A DNA stretch of 21,088 nucleotides, taken from a virus. Shown piece by piece: positions 1,699-15,511 of this stretch (position 1 is its first letter; each line of letters opens with the position of its first letter). The notes under the pieces were generated by a model. The model ran no database searches, had not been told where the DNA came from, and saw only the letters and a list, made by a program, of their open reading frames with translations. The stretch covers positions 1 through 21,088 of the IMG/VR virus record IMGVR_UViG_3300032561_001745; one strand, 5' to 3'. Made by a program: the position numbers and the translations under genes.

Positions 1699-1925
1699 CC
1701 GCGCCTCGCACCCTTCGCACCAGCAGCGATGCCTGCTGGCCGCTGCGCTGCCCCGATGGCCGCACTTTCGCCCAGCGCGCCGCCGATCGCGCCGCCGGCA
1801 TCCCCGATCCTGAACCCGCCACCAAGCGCCGCCGCCAGCCGGCCGCCGGTGTCGAACGCATGCGCGTGGTGAAGGACATCGAAGCGCGCGTGGTGGCGTT
1901 TCGCCTGCGTAATGGAAAGGACTGA
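1695..1925 (+). CDS. Small basic phage hypothetical protein
   Basis: The product has 76 residues and starts with an ATGA overlap on the membrane-protein gene. It is strongly basic: 'KRRRQ' near residue 44 and 'FRLRNGKD' at the end. It carries two cysteines (residues about 13-19) and no hydrophobic span. The following HTH gene begins 5 bases after its stop, and that gene's ribosome binding site lies in this gene's last codons. No family is recognised; its charge and location suggest a nucleic-acid-associated early protein. Confidence 0.6.
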   Translation: MTAPRTLRTSSDACWPLRCPDGRTFAQRAADRAAGIPDPEPATKRRRQPAAGVERMRVVKDIEARVVAFRLRNGKD

Positions 1926-1929
1926 ACCT

Positions 1930-2118
1930 ATGGAGCAGCTGCTCTATTCGATCGAAGACACCTGTCGCCTGCTCAGCCTGGGCCAGACCAAGGTTTTCGA
2001 ACTGCTGTCCACGGGCCAGCTCAAAAGCGTGAAAATCGGCCGCAAACGCCTGATCCAGGCCGCATCGATCCGCGAGATCGCCGAGCACGGCCTGCCGCCC
2101 AAACCGAAGAAGGATTGA
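1930..2118 (+). CDS. Excisionase/MerR-like helix-turn-helix DNA-binding protein
   Basis: The product has 62 residues. The ATG at 1930 is preferred over 1912 because AAGGA lies 8 bases before it. The sequence is that of the HTH_17 excisionase-type winged helix: YSIEDTCRLLSLGQTKVFEL (helix, turn, helix), then the wing STGQLKSVKIGRKRLI, and a last helix beginning AASIREIAEHG. Proteins of this size and fold act as excisionases (with a tyrosine integrase such as the one at 10389) or as small phage regulators. Family assignment is firm; whether it directs excision is inferred. It sits far from the integrase gene. Confidence 0.82.
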   Translation: MEQLLYSIEDTCRLLSLGQTKVFELLSTGQLKSVKIGRKRLIQAASIREIAEHGLPPKPKKD

Positions 2119-2122
2119 GCCG

Positions 2123-2692
2123 ATGGCAACTGCGCCCCTTGACGACGAATTTACGCCGACCGCGCTCGGACATCTGGCCGTCTCGCATTCCGAAGATGTT
2201 GCCGCCGGCATCGATTTTGTGATGGCTTGGCTCAACGATCACCCCGATTGCCGCGATGCCTGGCGCGAACAGATCGAGCGCGCCTTTGCCCGCGACATCG
2301 TGTCCGCCGCCATGACCAGCAAGCGCGGGCGCATTGACCGGCAAGAGGCGAAGGCCGGCGCGGTTATCGGAACGATTGAACCCAAGGCGACCAAGCGCGC
2401 GGCGCCGGCGCCCGTGGTCAGCATGGGCGATGTCATTCGCCTCAATAGCGAGCGTTATCTCGATACGCCGATCTGGGGCGGCAAGCGGTTGCGCGATGCG
2501 ACCATCGCCGAGGTGCGCGATTGCGCCCGAAACTACCACATCACCGGCACCACCATGATCACCAACAGCCGCCGTTATGCCGCGATCGCTGCCGCTGCCG
2601 CGCGCACCGGCGCGGACGACACTGCAACGATCGGCAGCACGCTGGACGAACAGACCGTTCGCCACATCTGGGAGAAGACCGATGGACAGTAA
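2123..2692 (+). CDS. Phage hypothetical protein
   Basis: The product has 189 residues and its ATG is preceded by AAGGA 9 bases upstream. The N-terminal part (residues 1-60) is acidic and helical (DVAAGIDFVMAWLNDHPDCRDAWREQIERAFARDIV). A basic, Ala/Pro-rich linker follows near residues 65-98. The C-terminal half (VIRLNSERYLDTPIWGGKRLRDATIAEVRDCARNY, then an Ala-rich helix) looks like a compact helical domain. No catalytic motif is apparent. It is probably a DNA-metabolism or regulatory protein by operon context only. The hairpin array starts 8 bases after its stop. Confidence 0.7.
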   Translation: MATAPLDDEFTPTALGHLAVSHSEDVAAGIDFVMAWLNDHPDCRDAWREQIERAFARDIVSAAMTSKRGRIDRQEAKAGAVIGTIEPKATKRAAPAPVVSMGDVIRLNSERYLDTPIWGGKRLRDATIAEVRDCARNYHITGTTMITNSRRYAAIAAAAARTGADDTATIGSTLDEQTVRHIWEKTDGQ

Positions 2693-2700
2693 TTTTGAAA

Positions 2701-3209
2701 TTGGGGCGGCTTGTGAGGCATTGACACCCATTGCCTGGGTGCTGCCCCAAACCGACTTTGAGCGGGCCCTGAATGTGATGACATCCTTCGAACTCGTGCC
2801 CGCTCAAATTCCTTTGGCTGACCAGAAGTCCTGTGACATCCCTCTGCGCGTTGTCAGCCAAAACCCTTTCGGCAGCGATGCCGACGCGCGCGGCCTGGAG
2901 TTGCTTGTTACCCGGGTTTCTGATGCCGCGCGCGACAATTTGGGAGGCCAGCCGTCATGTGTTGCCCATATTCCGACTGCCTCCCAATTCGATTTCGGTG
3001 GCCTAGCAACCGATGATACCCTTGCGGGTTCTGCCACCGAACCCCATTGCGACGCGCCCGAAATGTCGTGTTTACCTTTTGTCAGGTGCGCGTCGCAAAC
3101 CCCTTCCACCGCGCCTTTGTACTTGAGTGACCCAATCAATCAGTGTGCGGACGGAAGCACCCCGACTGGCCTGCCCCGTGCTGAAATCCATGATGGAAGT
3201 GCTAATCGG
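2701..3209 (+). repeat. Array of nine 30-base-loop stem-loops with unit-specific stems
   Basis: Nine hairpins follow one another, each with exactly 30 bases between the arms. Left arm / loop / right arm: A 2701-2710/2711-2740/2741-2750; B 2757-2767/2768-2797/2798-2808; C 2813-2822/2823-2852/2853-2862; D 2885-2894/2895-2924/2925-2934; E 2940-2948/2949-2978/2979-2987; F 2994-3002/3003-3032/3033-3041; G 3047-3057/3058-3087/3088-3098; H 3104-3114/3115-3144/3145-3156; I 3162-3170/3171-3200/3201-3209. B-G have perfect arms of 9-11 bp, for example TTTGAGCGGGC/GCCCGCTCAAA. A has one G:U. H has a bulge and one G:U; I has one mismatch and one G:U. Stem sequences differ between units, but most begin TT and end AA. 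Loops begin C (T in A), end T, carry CC at positions 18-19, and carry TG at 12-13 in all but H (core TGWYAYCC). Spacers are 4-6 bases except 22 between C and D. Structured RNA, ssDNA hairpins or protein-binding sites are all possible. Confidence 0.9.
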
Positions 3210-3227
3210 CGCGGCGGCCGGCGCAAG

Positions 3228-3956
3228 GTGGCGGCGCGTCCGCCAGCCGAGCCGGCCGCCGTCGTGGCCGAGATCGTCATGCATTACCGCCGCTATGAAG
3301 ACTTGCGGCGCGCCTATCAGCGGATCGAACTGCAAGCCATCGCCACGTGCCGGGCGATCTGTGGGGGAGACAAGACCGCCGGGATGAAGCTCTACAAGGC
3401 GGCGGACAACGCCGACGCAGAGCTGTGGCTTACGCCCTATCGCATGGCCATGGCGCCGTTGACCGACGCGATCAAGGCGCAGGAAAAGATGCTGGCCGCG
3501 CTGGCCCGCGAATTGCCCGTGTACGAATGGGCCCAGGCTGTGGCCGGCCTTTCTGATCGGTTTCTTGCCATGATCGTCGGGGCCGCCGGGCGGCCGATCA
3601 CGGATTATCGCAACCCGTCATGCTTGTGGAAACGCATGGGCATGGCCGTGATCGACGGCGAGCGCCAGCGGCGCGTGACCGGCGATGCCGCGCTCGTCCA
3701 CGGTTACAATGCCGGGCGCCGGGCGCTGATGTGGAACATCGAGGAATCGATCCTGAAACAACAGTTGCGCAAGGACGAAGAGGCCACGCGCATCGCCAAC
3801 GGTTATTACGGCCAGGTCTACATCGACCGCCGCGCGCACGAGGTTGCGAACAAGGGCGAAAAGTACAGCCACCACCGGGCCAAACGCTACGTTGGCAAAC
3901 GCCTGCTGCGCGAACTCTGGCGCGCATGGCGCGATGGGAAGGGCGGTGCGGCATGA
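3228..3956 (+). CDS. Transposase_20 (IS110-type C-terminal domain) protein lacking the DEDD nuclease half
   Basis: From the GTG at 3228 the product is 242 residues; ATG 3279 is also possible. The frame stays open back to an ATG at 2682 with a good GGAG, which would give 424 residues, but that extension runs straight through the hairpin array and looks non-proteinaceous. The N-terminal half is helical. The C-terminal half matches the helix-hairpin-helix-type IS110/IS116/IS902 domain: VAGLSDRFLAMIVGAAG, then a segment beginning NPSCLWKRMGMAV, NAGRRALMWNIEE, and HHRAKRYVGKRLLRELWRAWR. The RuvC-like DEDD domain that precedes this in IS110 transposases is absent. The serine usually found after the 'GL.P' motif is replaced (MGMAVIDGERQRRV). 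It is therefore probably a domesticated or accessory nucleic-acid-binding protein, not a self-sufficient transposase. Family call is good; role unknown. Confidence 0.72.
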   Translation: MAARPPAEPAAVVAEIVMHYRRYEDLRRAYQRIELQAIATCRAICGGDKTAGMKLYKAADNADAELWLTPYRMAMAPLTDAIKAQEKMLAALARELPVYEWAQAVAGLSDRFLAMIVGAAGRPITDYRNPSCLWKRMGMAVIDGERQRRVTGDAALVHGYNAGRRALMWNIEESILKQQLRKDEEATRIANGYYGQVYIDRRAHEVANKGEKYSHHRAKRYVGKRLLRELWRAWRDGKGGAA

Positions 3957-5475: not shown

Positions 5476-6164
5476 TCAACAGCGACCGCCCCGGCCACAT
5501 CGACCAGGACACCGACCCGGCCCCGATCGCCGCGGGCGGCGTGGAGGTGATGTTCAAGGTGAAGCCATGCAAAAATGGCCATCTGCCTGGTCTTCGTGTC
5601 GGGCTGTCCGGTGGACACTATGCTTTTGTCTGTTCTTGCGATCAGGACACGCCGCGGTCCGCAACCATTGGTGACGCGGTGAAGGCATGGAACACCCGCG
5701 TCGCTGAGCAGGGCGCCTCGCCGAATGACAGGTACGTGATCACGAAGGGTGGCTACTATTACCGCCCAAACGCTCAAGGCTACACGACCGATGTCGAGCA
5801 GGCCGGTCGCTTTACGCTGCACGAGGCGATCCAATATTCGCATCCGAACGGACCCGATGGGCCGCGCGACGGGATTGATTACACGCCCGCGCCGCCCGCC
5901 ACTTTTGATGTGGCCCGCGAAAATGCGCGGTTGCGCGTAGAGGTTGAAGCCAAAAGTCAATGGATCGAACGCCTTGACCGCGAGGTAGCTGCCAAAGACG
6001 CCGAACTCGCCACGCTGCGGGTCGCATTGATCGCGGCAAAAACGTGGCATGAAGACGAACTCAAAGCGATTTCAAAGGGGCACGATTACGGATGGGCCAG
6101 GCACAAGCACCTGGAGCAGATTGAGACGATCGACGCCGCCTTGGGTGCGGGAGATGGCGCATGA
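5472..6164 (+). CDS. Lar-like anti-restriction domain protein with coiled-coil tail
   Basis: The product has 230 residues with an ATGA-overlap start. Residues about 27-80 resemble the Lar/restriction-alleviation zinc-finger family: 'KPCKNGHLPGLRVGL', then 'FVCSCDQDT' and 'DAVKAWNTR'. The first CxxC of the family (PCPFCG) is reduced to a single Cys followed by His (PCKNGH), so the metal site may be altered. Residues about 87-140 form a second small unit common in phage proteins (RYVITKGGYYYRPNAQGYTT, ending in PDGPRDGIDY). Residues about 145-215 are heptad-like and probably coiled coil. Two methyltransferase genes follow, consistent with a local anti-restriction cluster. Confidence 0.6.
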   Translation: MINSDRPGHIDQDTDPAPIAAGGVEVMFKVKPCKNGHLPGLRVGLSGGHYAFVCSCDQDTPRSATIGDAVKAWNTRVAEQGASPNDRYVITKGGYYYRPNAQGYTTDVEQAGRFTLHEAIQYSHPNGPDGPRDGIDYTPAPPATFDVARENARLRVEVEAKSQWIERLDREVAAKDAELATLRVALIAAKTWHEDELKAISKGHDYGWARHKHLEQIETIDAALGAGDGA

Positions 6165-7825
6165 GCCGCATTTTGATCGCCTGCGAATTCAGCGGCACCG
6201 TGCGCCGCGCCTTCACCGACCGGGGCTATGATGCATGGTCATGCGACCTGTTGCCCGCCGAGGACCGCAGCAACCGGCATATTACCGGCGACGTGCGCGA
6301 CATCCTGGCCGATGGCTGGGACCTGCTGATCGTTGCCCACCCGCCATGCTTTGCCGGCGACACGCTGGTGCTTTGCGAAACCGGCTACAAACCGATCGCA
6401 GAGGTTCAGCCTGGCGAAAAGGTGCTGACCCATCTTGGCCGTTGGCGCAGGGTGACCGAGGTCATGAAGCGGGTGGCGCAAAATGTCGTGGTCGTGAAAT
6501 CGACCAACAGCTTGCGCACCGTGACCACGCCGGAGCATCCCTATTATGCCCGGTACCGCGAGCCCTATCGCAACAAATTCCGCACCAAAGGAGAACGCGA
6601 CGGCGCGCCGGAATGGGTGCCCGCAAGCCAACTGACCACGCGGCATTTCACCGCATCGGTGCTTTGCCCCGAGCGGCGCGCCGACGTGTCCGACGACGAT
6701 CTGTGGCTGATGGGTCGCTATGTCGCTGATGGCCACATGCGAGATAGCCGGTGGACCCCGGGCAAGTATGAGGAAATGCTGATCGCGGTCGGCAAGCACG
6801 AGACCGAATCGTTCCTTGCCCGCGTGACCCGCAAGGTGGCGATGCATTGGAACGGCACGGCCTACAAGGCGACGTTCTATGGCCACGATGCCATCGCGCC
6901 TTTTGCCCAATTCGGTCGCAGCTGTGAGACCAAGCATTTGCCCGAATGGGTGCTGGCGCTGCCGGTCGAACAAGCGAGGCATTTTCTCGACGGCTACATC
7001 AGCGGCGATGGCCATATCCATCAGAAGCGCATCGAGGCAAGCACCGTCTCTCCGATGCTTGCGCTTGGCGTTGCCCACCTGATGCAACGCGTGCACGGCA
7101 AATGCCCGGCATTGCAAAACCTCAAGGCCCGGAAAAATCACTTCATCCAAGGGCGCGAGGTGACGAATGCCGAGCAGTTCAAGGCATCAGTGCCTCAATC
7201 GAACGAGCGTCTGCGCAACTATGTCGCAGGCATCTATGCTTGGGGCCATGTGCGCGAAATCGCCCACGCCAGCGAGCCGACTGTGGTTTTCAATCTGGCG
7301 GTCGAGGAAGACGAGACCTACACCGCAAACGGCGTGGTCGTTCACAATTGCACGCGCCTGTGCAACAGCGGCGTGCGCTGGCTGACAGAACCGCCAGCCG
7401 GCCGCAGCCGCGCCGACATGTGGGCCGAACTGGATCAGGGCGCCGCGCTGTTCTCGACGCTGTGGAATGCCCCTGTGTCGCGCGTGGCGGTCGAGAACCC
7501 GGTCATGCACAGGCACGCCAAGGAACGCATCATCGGTTACCAGCCGGCCACACAGAGCGTCCAGCCGTGGGAATACGGCGACTGGGAGACAAAGCGCACG
7601 TGCCTGTGGCTGCGCGGCCTGCCGCCGCTGGTGCCGACTTGGCGCACGCTTCATGAAGCGCGCACCGCGCTGGGCCACACCCGCGATCCCGTCGCTCGCG
7701 TCCACCGCATGGCGCCCGGCCAGGATCGCGCGAAAGAGCGCAGCCGGTTTTTCCCGGGCATCGCTCGCGCCATGGCAACCCAGTGGGGTCCGGTGGTCGA
7801 TCGCGAGGAGGCGAGCGCGGCATGA
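6161..7825 (+). CDS. DNA cytosine methyltransferase-like protein interrupted by an intein
   Basis: The 554-residue precursor has an ATGA-overlap start. Removing the intein (residues 63-396) gives a 220-residue host protein of the short phage 'DNA cytosine methyltransferase' type. The cofactor-side segment is ILIACEFSGTVRRAFTDRGY, and the motif IV equivalent is HPP|CTRLCNSG. A 'VENP' resembles motif VI. There is no target-recognition domain of normal 5mC methyltransferase length, so base methylation is plausible but unproven. The intein sits exactly before the Cys of the PPC motif, so the protein is inactive until spliced. Expected role: modifying phage DNA or another nucleotide reaction. Family call is moderate; presence of the intein is strong. 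Confidence 0.82.
   Translation: MSRILIACEFSGTVRRAFTDRGYDAWSCDLLPAEDRSNRHITGDVRDILADGWDLLIVAHPPCFAGDTLVLCETGYKPIAEVQPGEKVLTHLGRWRRVTEVMKRVAQNVVVVKSTNSLRTVTTPEHPYYARYREPYRNKFRTKGERDGAPEWVPASQLTTRHFTASVLCPERRADVSDDDLWLMGRYVADGHMRDSRWTPGKYEEMLIAVGKHETESFLARVTRKVAMHWNGTAYKATFYGHDAIAPFAQFGRSCETKHLPEWVLALPVEQARHFLDGYISGDGHIHQKRIEASTVSPMLALGVAHLMQRVHGKCPALQNLKARKNHFIQGREVTNAEQFKASVPQSNERLRNYVAGIYAWGHVREIAHASEPTVVFNLAVEEDETYTANGVVVHNCTRLCNSGVRWLTEPPAGRSRADMWAELDQGAALFSTLWNAPVSRVAVENPVMHRHAKERIIGYQPATQSVQPWEYGDWETKRTCLWLRGLPPLVPTWRTLHEARTALGHTRDPVARVHRMAPGQDRAKERSRFFPGIARAMATQWGPVVDREEASAA
6347..7348 (+). mobile_element. Intein with LAGLIDADG homing endonuclease
   Basis: The element encodes 334 residues inside the methyltransferase-like gene. 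It begins with Cys63 (block A: CFAGDTLVLCETGYKPIAEV). The TxxH block is at residues 123-126 (TPEHPYY). The end is block F/G: FNLAVEEDETYTANG then VVVHN, with Asn396 and Cys397 as the +1 nucleophile. Between them are two LAGLIDADG-type motifs, LWLMGRYVADG (181-191) and HFLDGYISGDG (274-284), each ending with an acidic residue and Gly as in active homing nucleases. All key splicing residues (Cys1, His of block B, His-Asn end, +1 Cys) are present, so splicing and homing should both be functional. Confidence 0.93.
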
Positions 7826-11948: not shown

Positions 11949-12011
11949 GTATGGTGACGGCATACTTTTTTGTTGACGGGTTTGCCTTTGATGTGTATTG
12001 TGATGGCATAC
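11949..12011 (+). promoter_or_regulatory. higB promoter with two operators
   Basis: The -35 box TTGACG (11973-11978) and -10 box TATTGT (11996-12001) are 17 bases apart. Two 17-base operator copies flank and overlap them: GTATGGTGACGGCATAC (11949-11965) and GTATTGTGATGGCATAC (11995-12011). These have GTAT/CATAC-type half-sites and match at 15 of 17 positions. The second overlaps the -10 box and start point. A full AAGGAGG (12018-12024) precedes the higB ATG. This fits autorepression by the HigA antitoxin or the HigBA complex. Confidence 0.7.
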
Positions 12012-12029
12012 AACACGAAGGAGGCAAAT

Positions 12030-12329
12030 ATGGAAATCGTTTCTGTTCTCGACCGTCGCATCAAGCAGCTGGTCGAAAACCCGAATGTTACCAAGGTGAA
12101 GGGGCTTTCGCCCGCGGATGCCCGCAAGATCATCGAAATGATCGCGGTGATCCGGGTCATGACCCACCCGCTTCAGCTTCGCGCCATCCCTTCGTGGCGG
12201 GCGCATGAACTGTCGCCGGGGCGCCCGACGTTCTGGAGCCTGCGCGTCAATCCGAATTTCCGCTTGGTGTTCAAGGTCGATATCGAGGAACAGGAAGTCC
12301 ATTTCCTGAATTACGAAGACTACCACTGA
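12030..12329 (+). CDS. higB: HigB-family toxin (RelE-like mRNA endonuclease)
   Basis: The product has 99 residues. The ATG at 12030 is chosen for its complete AAGGAGG 5 bases upstream; an earlier in-frame ATG at 11970 lies within the promoter. The C-terminal half carries the HigB 'killer protein' signature: LRAIPSWRAHELSPGR, then FWSLRVNPNFRLVFKVDIEE and VHFLNYEDYH. These toxins cleave ribosome-bound mRNA and are neutralised by HigA. The toxin gene comes first, as is usual for higBA. Unusually, 129 bases with their own operators separate it from the antitoxin gene. The location next to attP makes it a phage accessory module. Confidence 0.9.
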   Translation: MEIVSVLDRRIKQLVENPNVTKVKGLSPADARKIIEMIAVIRVMTHPLQLRAIPSWRAHELSPGRPTFWSLRVNPNFRLVFKVDIEEQEVHFLNYEDYH

Positions 12330-12336
12330 TCGGGGC

Positions 12337-12354
12337 GGGCGGGGAAACCCGCCC
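12337..12354 (+). other. GNRA-capped hairpin after higB
   Basis: GGGCGGG-GAAA-CCCGCCC is a perfect 7-bp stem with a GAAA tetraloop starting 8 bases after the higB stop. No T run follows, so it is not a standard terminator. It could protect the higB mRNA 3' end or attenuate read-through into higA. Confidence 0.5.
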
Positions 12355-12383
12355 AAACCGCCGCCGCTTGGCGACGTTTATTT

Positions 12384-12432
12384 GTATGGTTGCGGCATAC
12401 TTTTTTCTTGTTTTTGTATGGGGACGTGATAC
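12384..12432 (+). promoter_or_regulatory. Second operator pair, upstream of higA
   Basis: GTATGGTTGCGGCATAC (12384-12400) differs at two positions from the first higB operator, and the similarity extends into the following TTTTTT run (25 of 28 bases alike over 12383-12410 versus 11948-11975). A weaker copy, GTATGGGGACGTGATAC, lies at 12416-12432. The antitoxin gene therefore seems to carry its own duplicated control region. I see no fully convincing -35/-10 pair here. AAAGGAG (12445-12451) is the higA ribosome binding site. Confidence 0.6.
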
Positions 12433-12458
12433 ACCTGCTAGGGTAAAGGAGTGTCCCG

Positions 12459-12884
12459 ATGTCAGAAAACCCCCATGCCGAACACAAGATCGTGGATGCG
12501 TACGAAATGCTTGTTGGCCCCATGCCTCCGGTCACCAAGCACCCCGGCGAATTCATCCGCGATGTGCTGCTGCCCGAATACGGGTTGAACGTCGCCAAGC
12601 TGGCGCGCTTGATCGGCGTGAATCGGCCGAACCTGCACAATGTGCTGAGCGGGCGGGTCGATGTCAGCCGCGACCTGGCCTATCGCCTGGGCGCGCTGAT
12701 GAACGACCATGTGGCCGATTTCCTGATCTCGTACCAGATCGCCTGGGACAAGACGCAGGACGCCGAGCGCCGGCAGGCGTACAAGGGCACGATCGAGCGG
12801 ATTACGCCGATCGATCCCGACGCGCGGAAAGCCCGGGCGCCGCGATCGGCGCCGGCCGGTGCGGTGGAAAGCGCAGAGGCATGA
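12459..12884 (+). CDS. higA: HigA-family antitoxin (XRE helix-turn-helix)
   Basis: The product has 141 residues with AAAGGAG 7 bases before the ATG. After a variable N-terminus, the HigA signature appears: a segment starting HPGEFIRDVLLPEYGLNVAK, then the helix-turn-helix LARLIGVNRPNLHNVLSGR and VDVSRDLAYRLG, then a C-terminal helix (SYQIAWDKTQDAERR). Typical HigA proteins are about 95-105 residues, so this one has an N-terminal addition of about 25 residues and a Pro/Ala-rich tail. It should neutralise HigB and repress the operators before both genes. Its stop overlaps the next start by 4 bases. Confidence 0.9.
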   Translation: MSENPHAEHKIVDAYEMLVGPMPPVTKHPGEFIRDVLLPEYGLNVAKLARLIGVNRPNLHNVLSGRVDVSRDLAYRLGALMNDHVADFLISYQIAWDKTQDAERRQAYKGTIERITPIDPDARKARAPRSAPAGAVESAEA

Positions 12885-15053: not shown

Positions 15054-15511
15054 CACAATTCCCCCTTGGCTGCCATCACCGCGTCGGGCGTGCGGCAGGT
15101 GTTGCCGGTCGGCGCCGGCGCGATGGCGATGGCTTGGGACAGGTCGGCGCGGTGTTTCGATCGATCGAGCGCGGCCTGGTCATCCTTGGCGCCTTGTGCC
15201 TGGGCGGTGGAGCTGGCTTTGCCGACGGCCATTGTTGCGAGGTTCTGGCGCGCGATCGCGGCCTGAAGGTCTTTGATCGACGCCGCTTCGATGTCGAGAT
15301 CGTGGCGCAGCGTGGCGTTGGTGGCGGTCAGGGTGGCGACGGCGCGATCCTTTACCGCCCATTCGTGCCAGCAGAGCGCGCACAGCACCGCCAGCGCGGC
15401 GCACAGGGCCCACGCGGGGTTGCGGGTGGCCCAGCCGGCAGCGGCGGCCAGAAACGCGCGCAGGCGCCCCAGCCAGCCGCCCAGCAGCAGCTTTATCGCC
15501 AGCCAAGTCAC
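15053..15511 (-). CDS. Rz-like inner-membrane spanin
   Basis: The product has 152 residues with a GTG start in a GTGA overlap. A hydrophobic N-terminal region (residues about 30-48, NPAWALCAALAVLCALCWHE) serves as the membrane anchor. A long helical periplasmic stretch follows (VATLTATNATLRHDLDIEAA, then KDLQAAIARQ) with the heptad character of i-spanins. The end, GNTCRTPDAVMAAKGEL, contains a Cys that may form a disulfide. The tandem arrangement with Rz1 supports the call. Confidence 0.72.
   Translation of the reverse strand: MTWLAIKLLLGGWLGRLRAFLAAAAGWATRNPAWALCAALAVLCALCWHEWAVKDRAVATLTATNATLRHDLDIEAASIKDLQAAIARQNLATMAVGKASSTAQAQGAKDDQAALDRSKHRADLSQAIAIAPAPTGNTCRTPDAVMAAKGEL

Follow-up and report, generated by a model that had tools for sequence, protein, structure and literature searches.

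We analyzed an IMG/VR phage contig of 21,088 bases (record IMGVR_UViG_3300032561_001745) with a GC content of ~64%, and we refer to this whole stretch as the window. On its + strand, at 2701-3209, there are nine consecutive hairpins with loops of exactly 30 nucleotides (nt), followed by a region that encodes a Nop domain; hairpins and Nop domain lie in a single open reading frame, which we call tasA. We conclude that the nine hairpins and the protein very probably form a TIGR-Tas system with a stem-loop array, in which TasA has no nuclease domain and the array is inside the tasA frame. TIGR-Tas systems are recently described RNA-guided DNA-targeting systems of phages (PMC12045711), and stem-loop arrays with TasA have been reported from a Peromyscus gut contig (Faure et al. 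2025, PMC12045711, Fig. 7). The positions of the features are listed in Table 1.

Table 1. Hairpin units, tasA and closely packed upstream genes in the window (all on one strand)
Feature	Position	Strand	Description
Unit 1	2701..2750	+	stem TTGGGGCGGC/GCTGCCCCAA, one G:U; spacer A TGTGAGGCAT, spacer B ATTGCCTGGG
Unit 2	2757..2808	+	11-bp stem; spacers CTGAATGTGA / TTCGAACTCG
Unit 3	2813..2862	+	10-bp stem; spacers AGAAGTCCTG / CTCTGCGCGT
Unit 4	2885..2934	+	10-bp stem; spacers TGGAGTTGCT / GGGTTTCTGA
Unit 5	2940..2987	+	9-bp stem; spacers AGCCGTCATG / ATATTCCGAC
Unit 6	2994..3041	+	9-bp stem; spacers TAGCAACCGA / TTGCGGGTTC
Unit 7	3047..3098	+	11-bp stem; spacers CGAAATGTCG / TTTTGTCAGG
Unit 8	3104..3156	+	imperfect stem, 6 bp and 4 bp separated by an internal loop; AG as box D; spacers TTTGTACTTG / AATCAATCAG
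Unit 9	3162..3209	+	weaker stem; spacers TGCCCCGTGC / ATGATGGAAG
tasA frame	2682..3956	+	424 amino acids; contains the whole array; codons 1-184 are the start and array region, the remainder the Nop domain
Nop domain of the Tas protein	3234..3953	+	without nuclease domain; fold as in TIGR-TasR and TasH
Shine-Dalgarno-like GGAG of tasA	2671..2674	+	7 nt upstream of ATG 2682
Upstream gene	2123..2692	+	189 amino acids, no Pfam match; stop TAA 2690-2692 overlaps the tasA start
HTH_17 helix-turn-helix gene	1912..2118	+	first of three closely packed genes

The units follow a common plan, stem-C|C-N10-TG-N4-CC-N10-T|G-stem', where the vertical strokes mark the ends of the loop. A preliminary description of this DNA had reported nine hairpins with 30-base loops, which we find as described, and a loop consensus that held in part: CC at loop positions 18-19 and T at position 30 are present in 9/9 units, whereas C at position 1 and TG at positions 12-13 are each present in 8/9 (unit 1 has T and unit 8 has AG). 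The closing pair is C-G in all nine units, with C the last base before the loop and G the first after it. When the closing pair is included, CC and TG both occur twice per unit, around two 10-nt spacers (CC-N10-TG-N4-CC-N10-TG). The directional core TGWYAYCC of the preliminary description is thereby explained: TG is box D and CC is box C, and they are flanked by the two spacers, the variable 10-mers. The distance between units, given earlier as 4-6 bases, is 4-6 nt except between units 3 and 4, where it is 22 nt. This gap (2863-2884), the only long one in the array, contains a small extra hairpin, TCGGC-AGCGAT-GCCGA.

The stems are conserved as structures and not as sequences. In the inner 8 bp of the nine stems, 69/72 pairs are formed (66 Watson-Crick and 3 G:U; 95.8%), and pairing falls to 57% when arms from different units are combined. 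The stem covariation score is 0.924, compared with 0.241 in shuffles, and none of 500 shuffles reached the observed value, in agreement with the earlier proposal of selection on structure. RNA folding of the array gave z = -5.4. When the whole window was scanned for perfect arms of at least 9 bp, there were six hairpins with a 30-nt gap, all of them within the array, and no other gap size occurred more than twice. A scan for the motif together with the stem gave nine matches on the + strand of the window, corresponding to eight of the nine units and an isolated hairpin at 15251-15304, and no matches on the - strand or in 20 dinucleotide shuffles. Unit 8, missed by the strict motif, was recovered by a covariance model at 27.9 bits. 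The isolated hairpin has most of the unit motifs, lies far from tas, and is probably there by chance.

The protein encoded downstream of the hairpins resembles known Tas proteins in sequence and in predicted fold. A profile of the protein family matched TIGR-TasR (9mty; E 2.1e-23) and TasH (6.9e-12). The best match in the PDB to an AlphaFold model (predicted local distance difference test, pLDDT, 93) was TIGR-TasR 9mty with Z 17.4, followed by TasH, by IS110 recombinases and, more weakly, by Nop5/Prp31. There was also a match to NCBIfam TIGR_Tas_endo (E 2e-15), under the cut-off of that family. No HNH or RuvC nuclease domain was matched in the 424-amino-acid protein, and the 240-amino-acid model contains only the Nop domain. 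A single-sequence search in IMG/VR and plasmids found no close relative of the window protein, PADLOC reported nothing for the array or the protein, and Rfam gave no significant match for the array.

The window has tandem units with variable palindromic stems and an adjoining tas gene, as expected for the TasA type. The stem-loop arrays described in PMC12045711 share with the window a Nop-only protein, tandem hairpins whose palindromic stems are specific to each unit, short linkers between units and a location in phages. The arrays studied here differ in the inner linker, which is a constant 4 nt for most units, and in that spacers are replaced in place in relatives (below); the boxes are CC and TG in the window, and CCA and CG/TG in its relatives. 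Dual-repeat arrays of TIGR-TasR and TasH also have the Nop dimer fold, box C/D pairs and tandem spacers of ~9 nt, but the system in the window has neither their nuclease domain nor their conserved edge repeats, and has 10-bp unit-specific stems instead. Box C/D small nucleolar ribonucleoproteins (Nop5/Prp31) have a Nop fold (Z ~8) and boxes C and D flanking guide segments; in contrast to these, we saw no fibrillarin or L7Ae and no K-turn stems, and the presumed target is DNA rather than RNA. An assignment to CRISPR arrays, which have identical direct repeats of 25-36 nt and spacers of similar size, was rejected, as it had been in the preliminary description: there are only short imperfect direct repeats, and the stems differ from unit to unit. 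What that description missed is that the kind was already known, as TIGR-Tas stem-loop arrays. Its suggestion of a multi-hairpin phage guide RNA is supported, and the units agree in every element with the published plan, that of a known guide RNA.

The preliminary description had also linked the hairpins to the neighboring Transposase_20-like protein, and this link stands. Single-stranded DNA hairpins and recombination sites had been proposed too, but it is very unlikely that the array is of either kind and serves a truncated IS110 transposase, despite the relationship of the protein to Transposase_20 and IS110. The protein is nearer to TasR and TasH than to IS110 by both sequence and fold; its only domain is the RNA-binding Nop domain, and no DEDD/RuvC recombinase domain was detected. 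At every locus the units are on the tas strand, and their stems are freely swapped while the boxes are fixed. IS110/IS621 bridge-RNA recombinases do share a Nop-like RNA-binding domain and box C/D-like guide loops, but they have a DEDD recombinase domain, which was not detected here, and use one two-loop bridge RNA rather than many short guides. An IS110 transposon as such was rejected: only the C-terminal part is Nop/Transposase_20-like, and residues 1-184 are encoded by the array.

Related loci carry the same kind of array. We found 36 of them in IMG/VR and GTDB genomes (designated by L numbers below), including Shinella and Rhizobium prophages. Three phage records are also related, and such hairpins occur in two of them, Rhizobium phage RHph_X2_25 and a Mycobacterium prophage; further Rhizobiaceae prophages were found in 6/395 genomes. 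Most of the related loci have the same hairpins, and 29 loci yielded 219 units that have a 4-nt inner linker. A covariance model based solely on the nine units of the window gave 126 matches (E<=1) in 28 sources, nine in the window and 117 in 27 other loci, beside relatives of the window protein in other phages and prophages. All 126 are on the tas strand, and a strict scan found no unit on the opposite strand in any locus. In the relatives, most box C copies read CCA and most box D copies CG, which leaves spacers of 9 nt. Membership of the window locus in TIGR-Tas, a known kind of system, is thus real and well-supported.

Some relatives have variations of their own. In L025 (2221-2649), and likewise in L026, the usual 4-nt inner linker is replaced in five units by one of 8 nt, CC-NNNN-GG, which forms a mini-hairpin; the forms are CCTACGGG, CCGCAAGG and CCTTTGGG, and two of the three end in a UNCG- or GNRA-like tetraloop. 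In L006 (3711-3776) and L008 (3699-3764), the 5' arm of the first hairpin 3' of tas overlaps the last tas codons (...EWRR...). One Rhizobiaceae genome (G042; L106 and L110) has two different Tas genes.

Comparison of related loci showed which parts of the arrays change. L022 and L027 have Tas proteins that are 97% identical, and their orthologous units keep the stems (213/224 positions, 95%) and the boxes with neighboring bases (74/80, 93%). In contrast, their spacers agree at about the random level, 27/90 positions for spacer A and 16/90 for spacer B (18-30% identity). Some units of L106 and L109 are identical or nearly so, whereas others have the same stem and wholly new spacers. L108 and L110 are ~96% identical across 3.8 kb, yet both of their hairpin units keep their stems and differ in their spacers. 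Units with the same stem within one locus have spacers as different as any others. In the array of L008 (2439-2986), the same two stem sequences, TGAGCGGGC and TTCCGGCGGC, are used repeatedly with spacers that all differ, which suggests copying of units followed by spacer change. Spacers thus vary between related loci among the relatives; no near-identical relative of the window was found. These comparisons show spacers of the relatives replaced in place within fixed stems, which fits guides under strong turnover. We could not find such replacement described in the available part of PMC12045711.

We searched for targets as composites of spacer A, 0-3 nt, and the reverse complement of spacer B. 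Composites of the 219 units gave 0/3/59 matches at 0/1/2 mismatches in 1.15 Mb of own and sibling phage contigs, the same counts as for three other arrangements and for re-paired spacers, which is the chance level. Five window units gave eight scattered exact 18-mers in IMG/VR, in unrelated contigs and consistent with chance, and seven window targets had no match in the phage collection. Gapless composites of 37 units matched nothing longer than 16 nt in four prophage-bearing bacterial genomes; for gapped targets, the search of whole host genomes covered one pattern, which gave none. Because no target was found, we infer the guide role of the spacers from their architecture and variability. 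The absent matches fit foreign targets, for example other phages or plasmids, although this is absence of evidence only.

The tas frame stays open between 2559 and 3956, with an in-frame start at ATG 2682 (ctGGGAGaagaccgATG) preceded by a Shine-Dalgarno site and located 19 nt ahead of the first hairpin. All nine hairpins are between this start and the Nop domain, and the array contains no stops in the tas frame, compared with 6 and 10 in the other two frames. Because the array is in the open tasA frame, ribosomes starting at ATG 2682 must pass all nine hairpins to reach the Nop domain. The preliminary description had set coding and structure as alternatives and had missed that the array is part of the tas reading frame; structure was confirmed, and the two hold together. 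We could not find embedding of an array in the tas frame described in the available part of PMC12045711.

The open frame recurs in related loci. To prevent circularity, we used a frame-blind test in which the hairpin cluster adjoining the Nop domain was taken from 26 loci regardless of frame. In these 3219 codons there were 9 stops in the tas frame versus 67 and 101 in the other frames, and 21/26 loci had no stops in the tas frame versus 5 and 4 in the others; the loci are related and hence not fully independent, although the array sequences themselves differ. Dinucleotide shuffles averaged 61.5 stops (minimum 39) and 4.4 zero-stop loci (maximum 11). The phase of hairpins relative to the tas frame was biased in adjacent arrays (65/10/45, p 4e-9) and was not biased in arrays distant from tas (26/27/32, p 0.69). 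The avoided phase is that in which box D, TG followed by A, would form a stop codon. Spacers in the frame-blind set were also depleted of stops (5/500 versus 57/1180, p 5e-5), with no difference in control units. A depletion of 0/344 in units within frames defined by a Shine-Dalgarno site and ATG was discarded as circular, and per-locus shuffles of the regions from such starts to the Nop domain have the same selection problem and were not used as main evidence.

The positions of starts agree with embedding. A start with a Shine-Dalgarno site precedes at least some units in 21/23 loci with an assigned start. In the Rhizobium group, zero to three embedded units, always in frame with the Nop domain, follow a start peptide that is conserved (MNM..SP..ICA) and has a good Shine-Dalgarno site, and the related loci L022 and L027 differ by exactly 69 nt in this stretch. 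The tas gene of phage X2_25 is annotated in GenBank from the conserved start, with three hairpins inside.

An open frame of this length (184 codons in the window, 66-297 in relatives) could mean that the array encodes a functional N-terminal protein domain and that the hairpins are secondary. We consider this highly improbable and largely refuted. Residues 1-184 have no Pfam match, the sequence of the region is not conserved, and the region is absent where relatives start right at the Nop domain. Stem covariation, the box motifs and the strand bias also argue against it.

We propose that the location of the array in the coding sequence of its effector makes one transcript choose between guides and protein, a self-limiting switch, and that guides are refreshed by replacing both spacers within fixed stems and not by adding units. 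We give this interpretation a probability of roughly 0.4. Judging from gene order and strand, the array would be transcribed together with the operon. As in the published stem-loop TasA system, a Nop-domain dimer would bind each hairpin through its two box C/box D pairs, and the hairpins would be cut out at the short linkers, each giving one guide RNA. By analogy with TasR and TasH, the 10-nt spacers A and B may pair with opposite strands of a ~20-bp DNA target, which TasA would bind and bend without cutting, as there is no nuclease domain here. Each transcript could then serve as either tasA mRNA or guides. Once cut for guides, a transcript cannot yield TasA, and ribosomes should be hindered by TasA on the hairpins; TasA would in consequence be limited to the amount of guide RNA. 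Binding of TasA to its own hairpins may in this way limit its own synthesis and balance protein against guides.

Several points weigh against the overall explanation. The window protein by itself scored 57 bits against the NCBIfam cut-off of 100 and has no Pfam match. The searches given above yielded no natural target, whether in phage contigs, in lysogen genomes or in viral databases. In a few relatives (L017, L018, L106, L108 and L110) the array lies before the tas start, so embedding is not required for function.

The main alternative is that the same TIGR array is kept open only to hold ribosomes on the transcript, against Rho-dependent termination or RNase, with no regulatory switch. This is possible, though less likely than not. 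The peptide encoded by the array is not conserved and the spacers differ. In the Mycobacterium prophage, the hairpins are in a separate annotated 74-codon gene, which overlaps the tas start at its end; what is kept may therefore be the translation of the array and not an N-terminal extension of the protein. However, arrays that are far from tas and not open in the tas frame keep intact hairpins, and translation across the hairpins would be expected to disturb their folding.

Other genes in the window give its context. Overlap of the upstream gene's stop with the tasA start makes translational coupling likely. Genes for an integrase, a DNA methylase, a lysozyme and a HigB-like toxin indicate that the window is from a temperate phage or a prophage fragment. 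The toxin gene, followed by a possible antitoxin gene with no Pfam match (together 11970-12884), adjoins the integrase. An open reading frame at 6161-7825 has Hint, intein-splicing and LAGLIDADG matches and is probably an intein inside a phage gene.

The questions left open in PMC12045711 include the origin of spacers, the maturation of guides and the role of the nuclease-less TasA. The form found here belongs to a known kind, but we could not find it described in the available part of that paper: the array is inside the effector gene, and in relatives spacers are rewritten in place. Gene callers mask such arrays as N-terminal extensions or small hypothetical genes (GenBank MW960032 and BK061308), so systems of this kind are probably under-counted. 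For a family of temperate-phage systems, an array within the effector's own frame offers a concrete idea of control, and near-identical prophage pairs with the same stems and new spacers are natural material for learning how spacers change.
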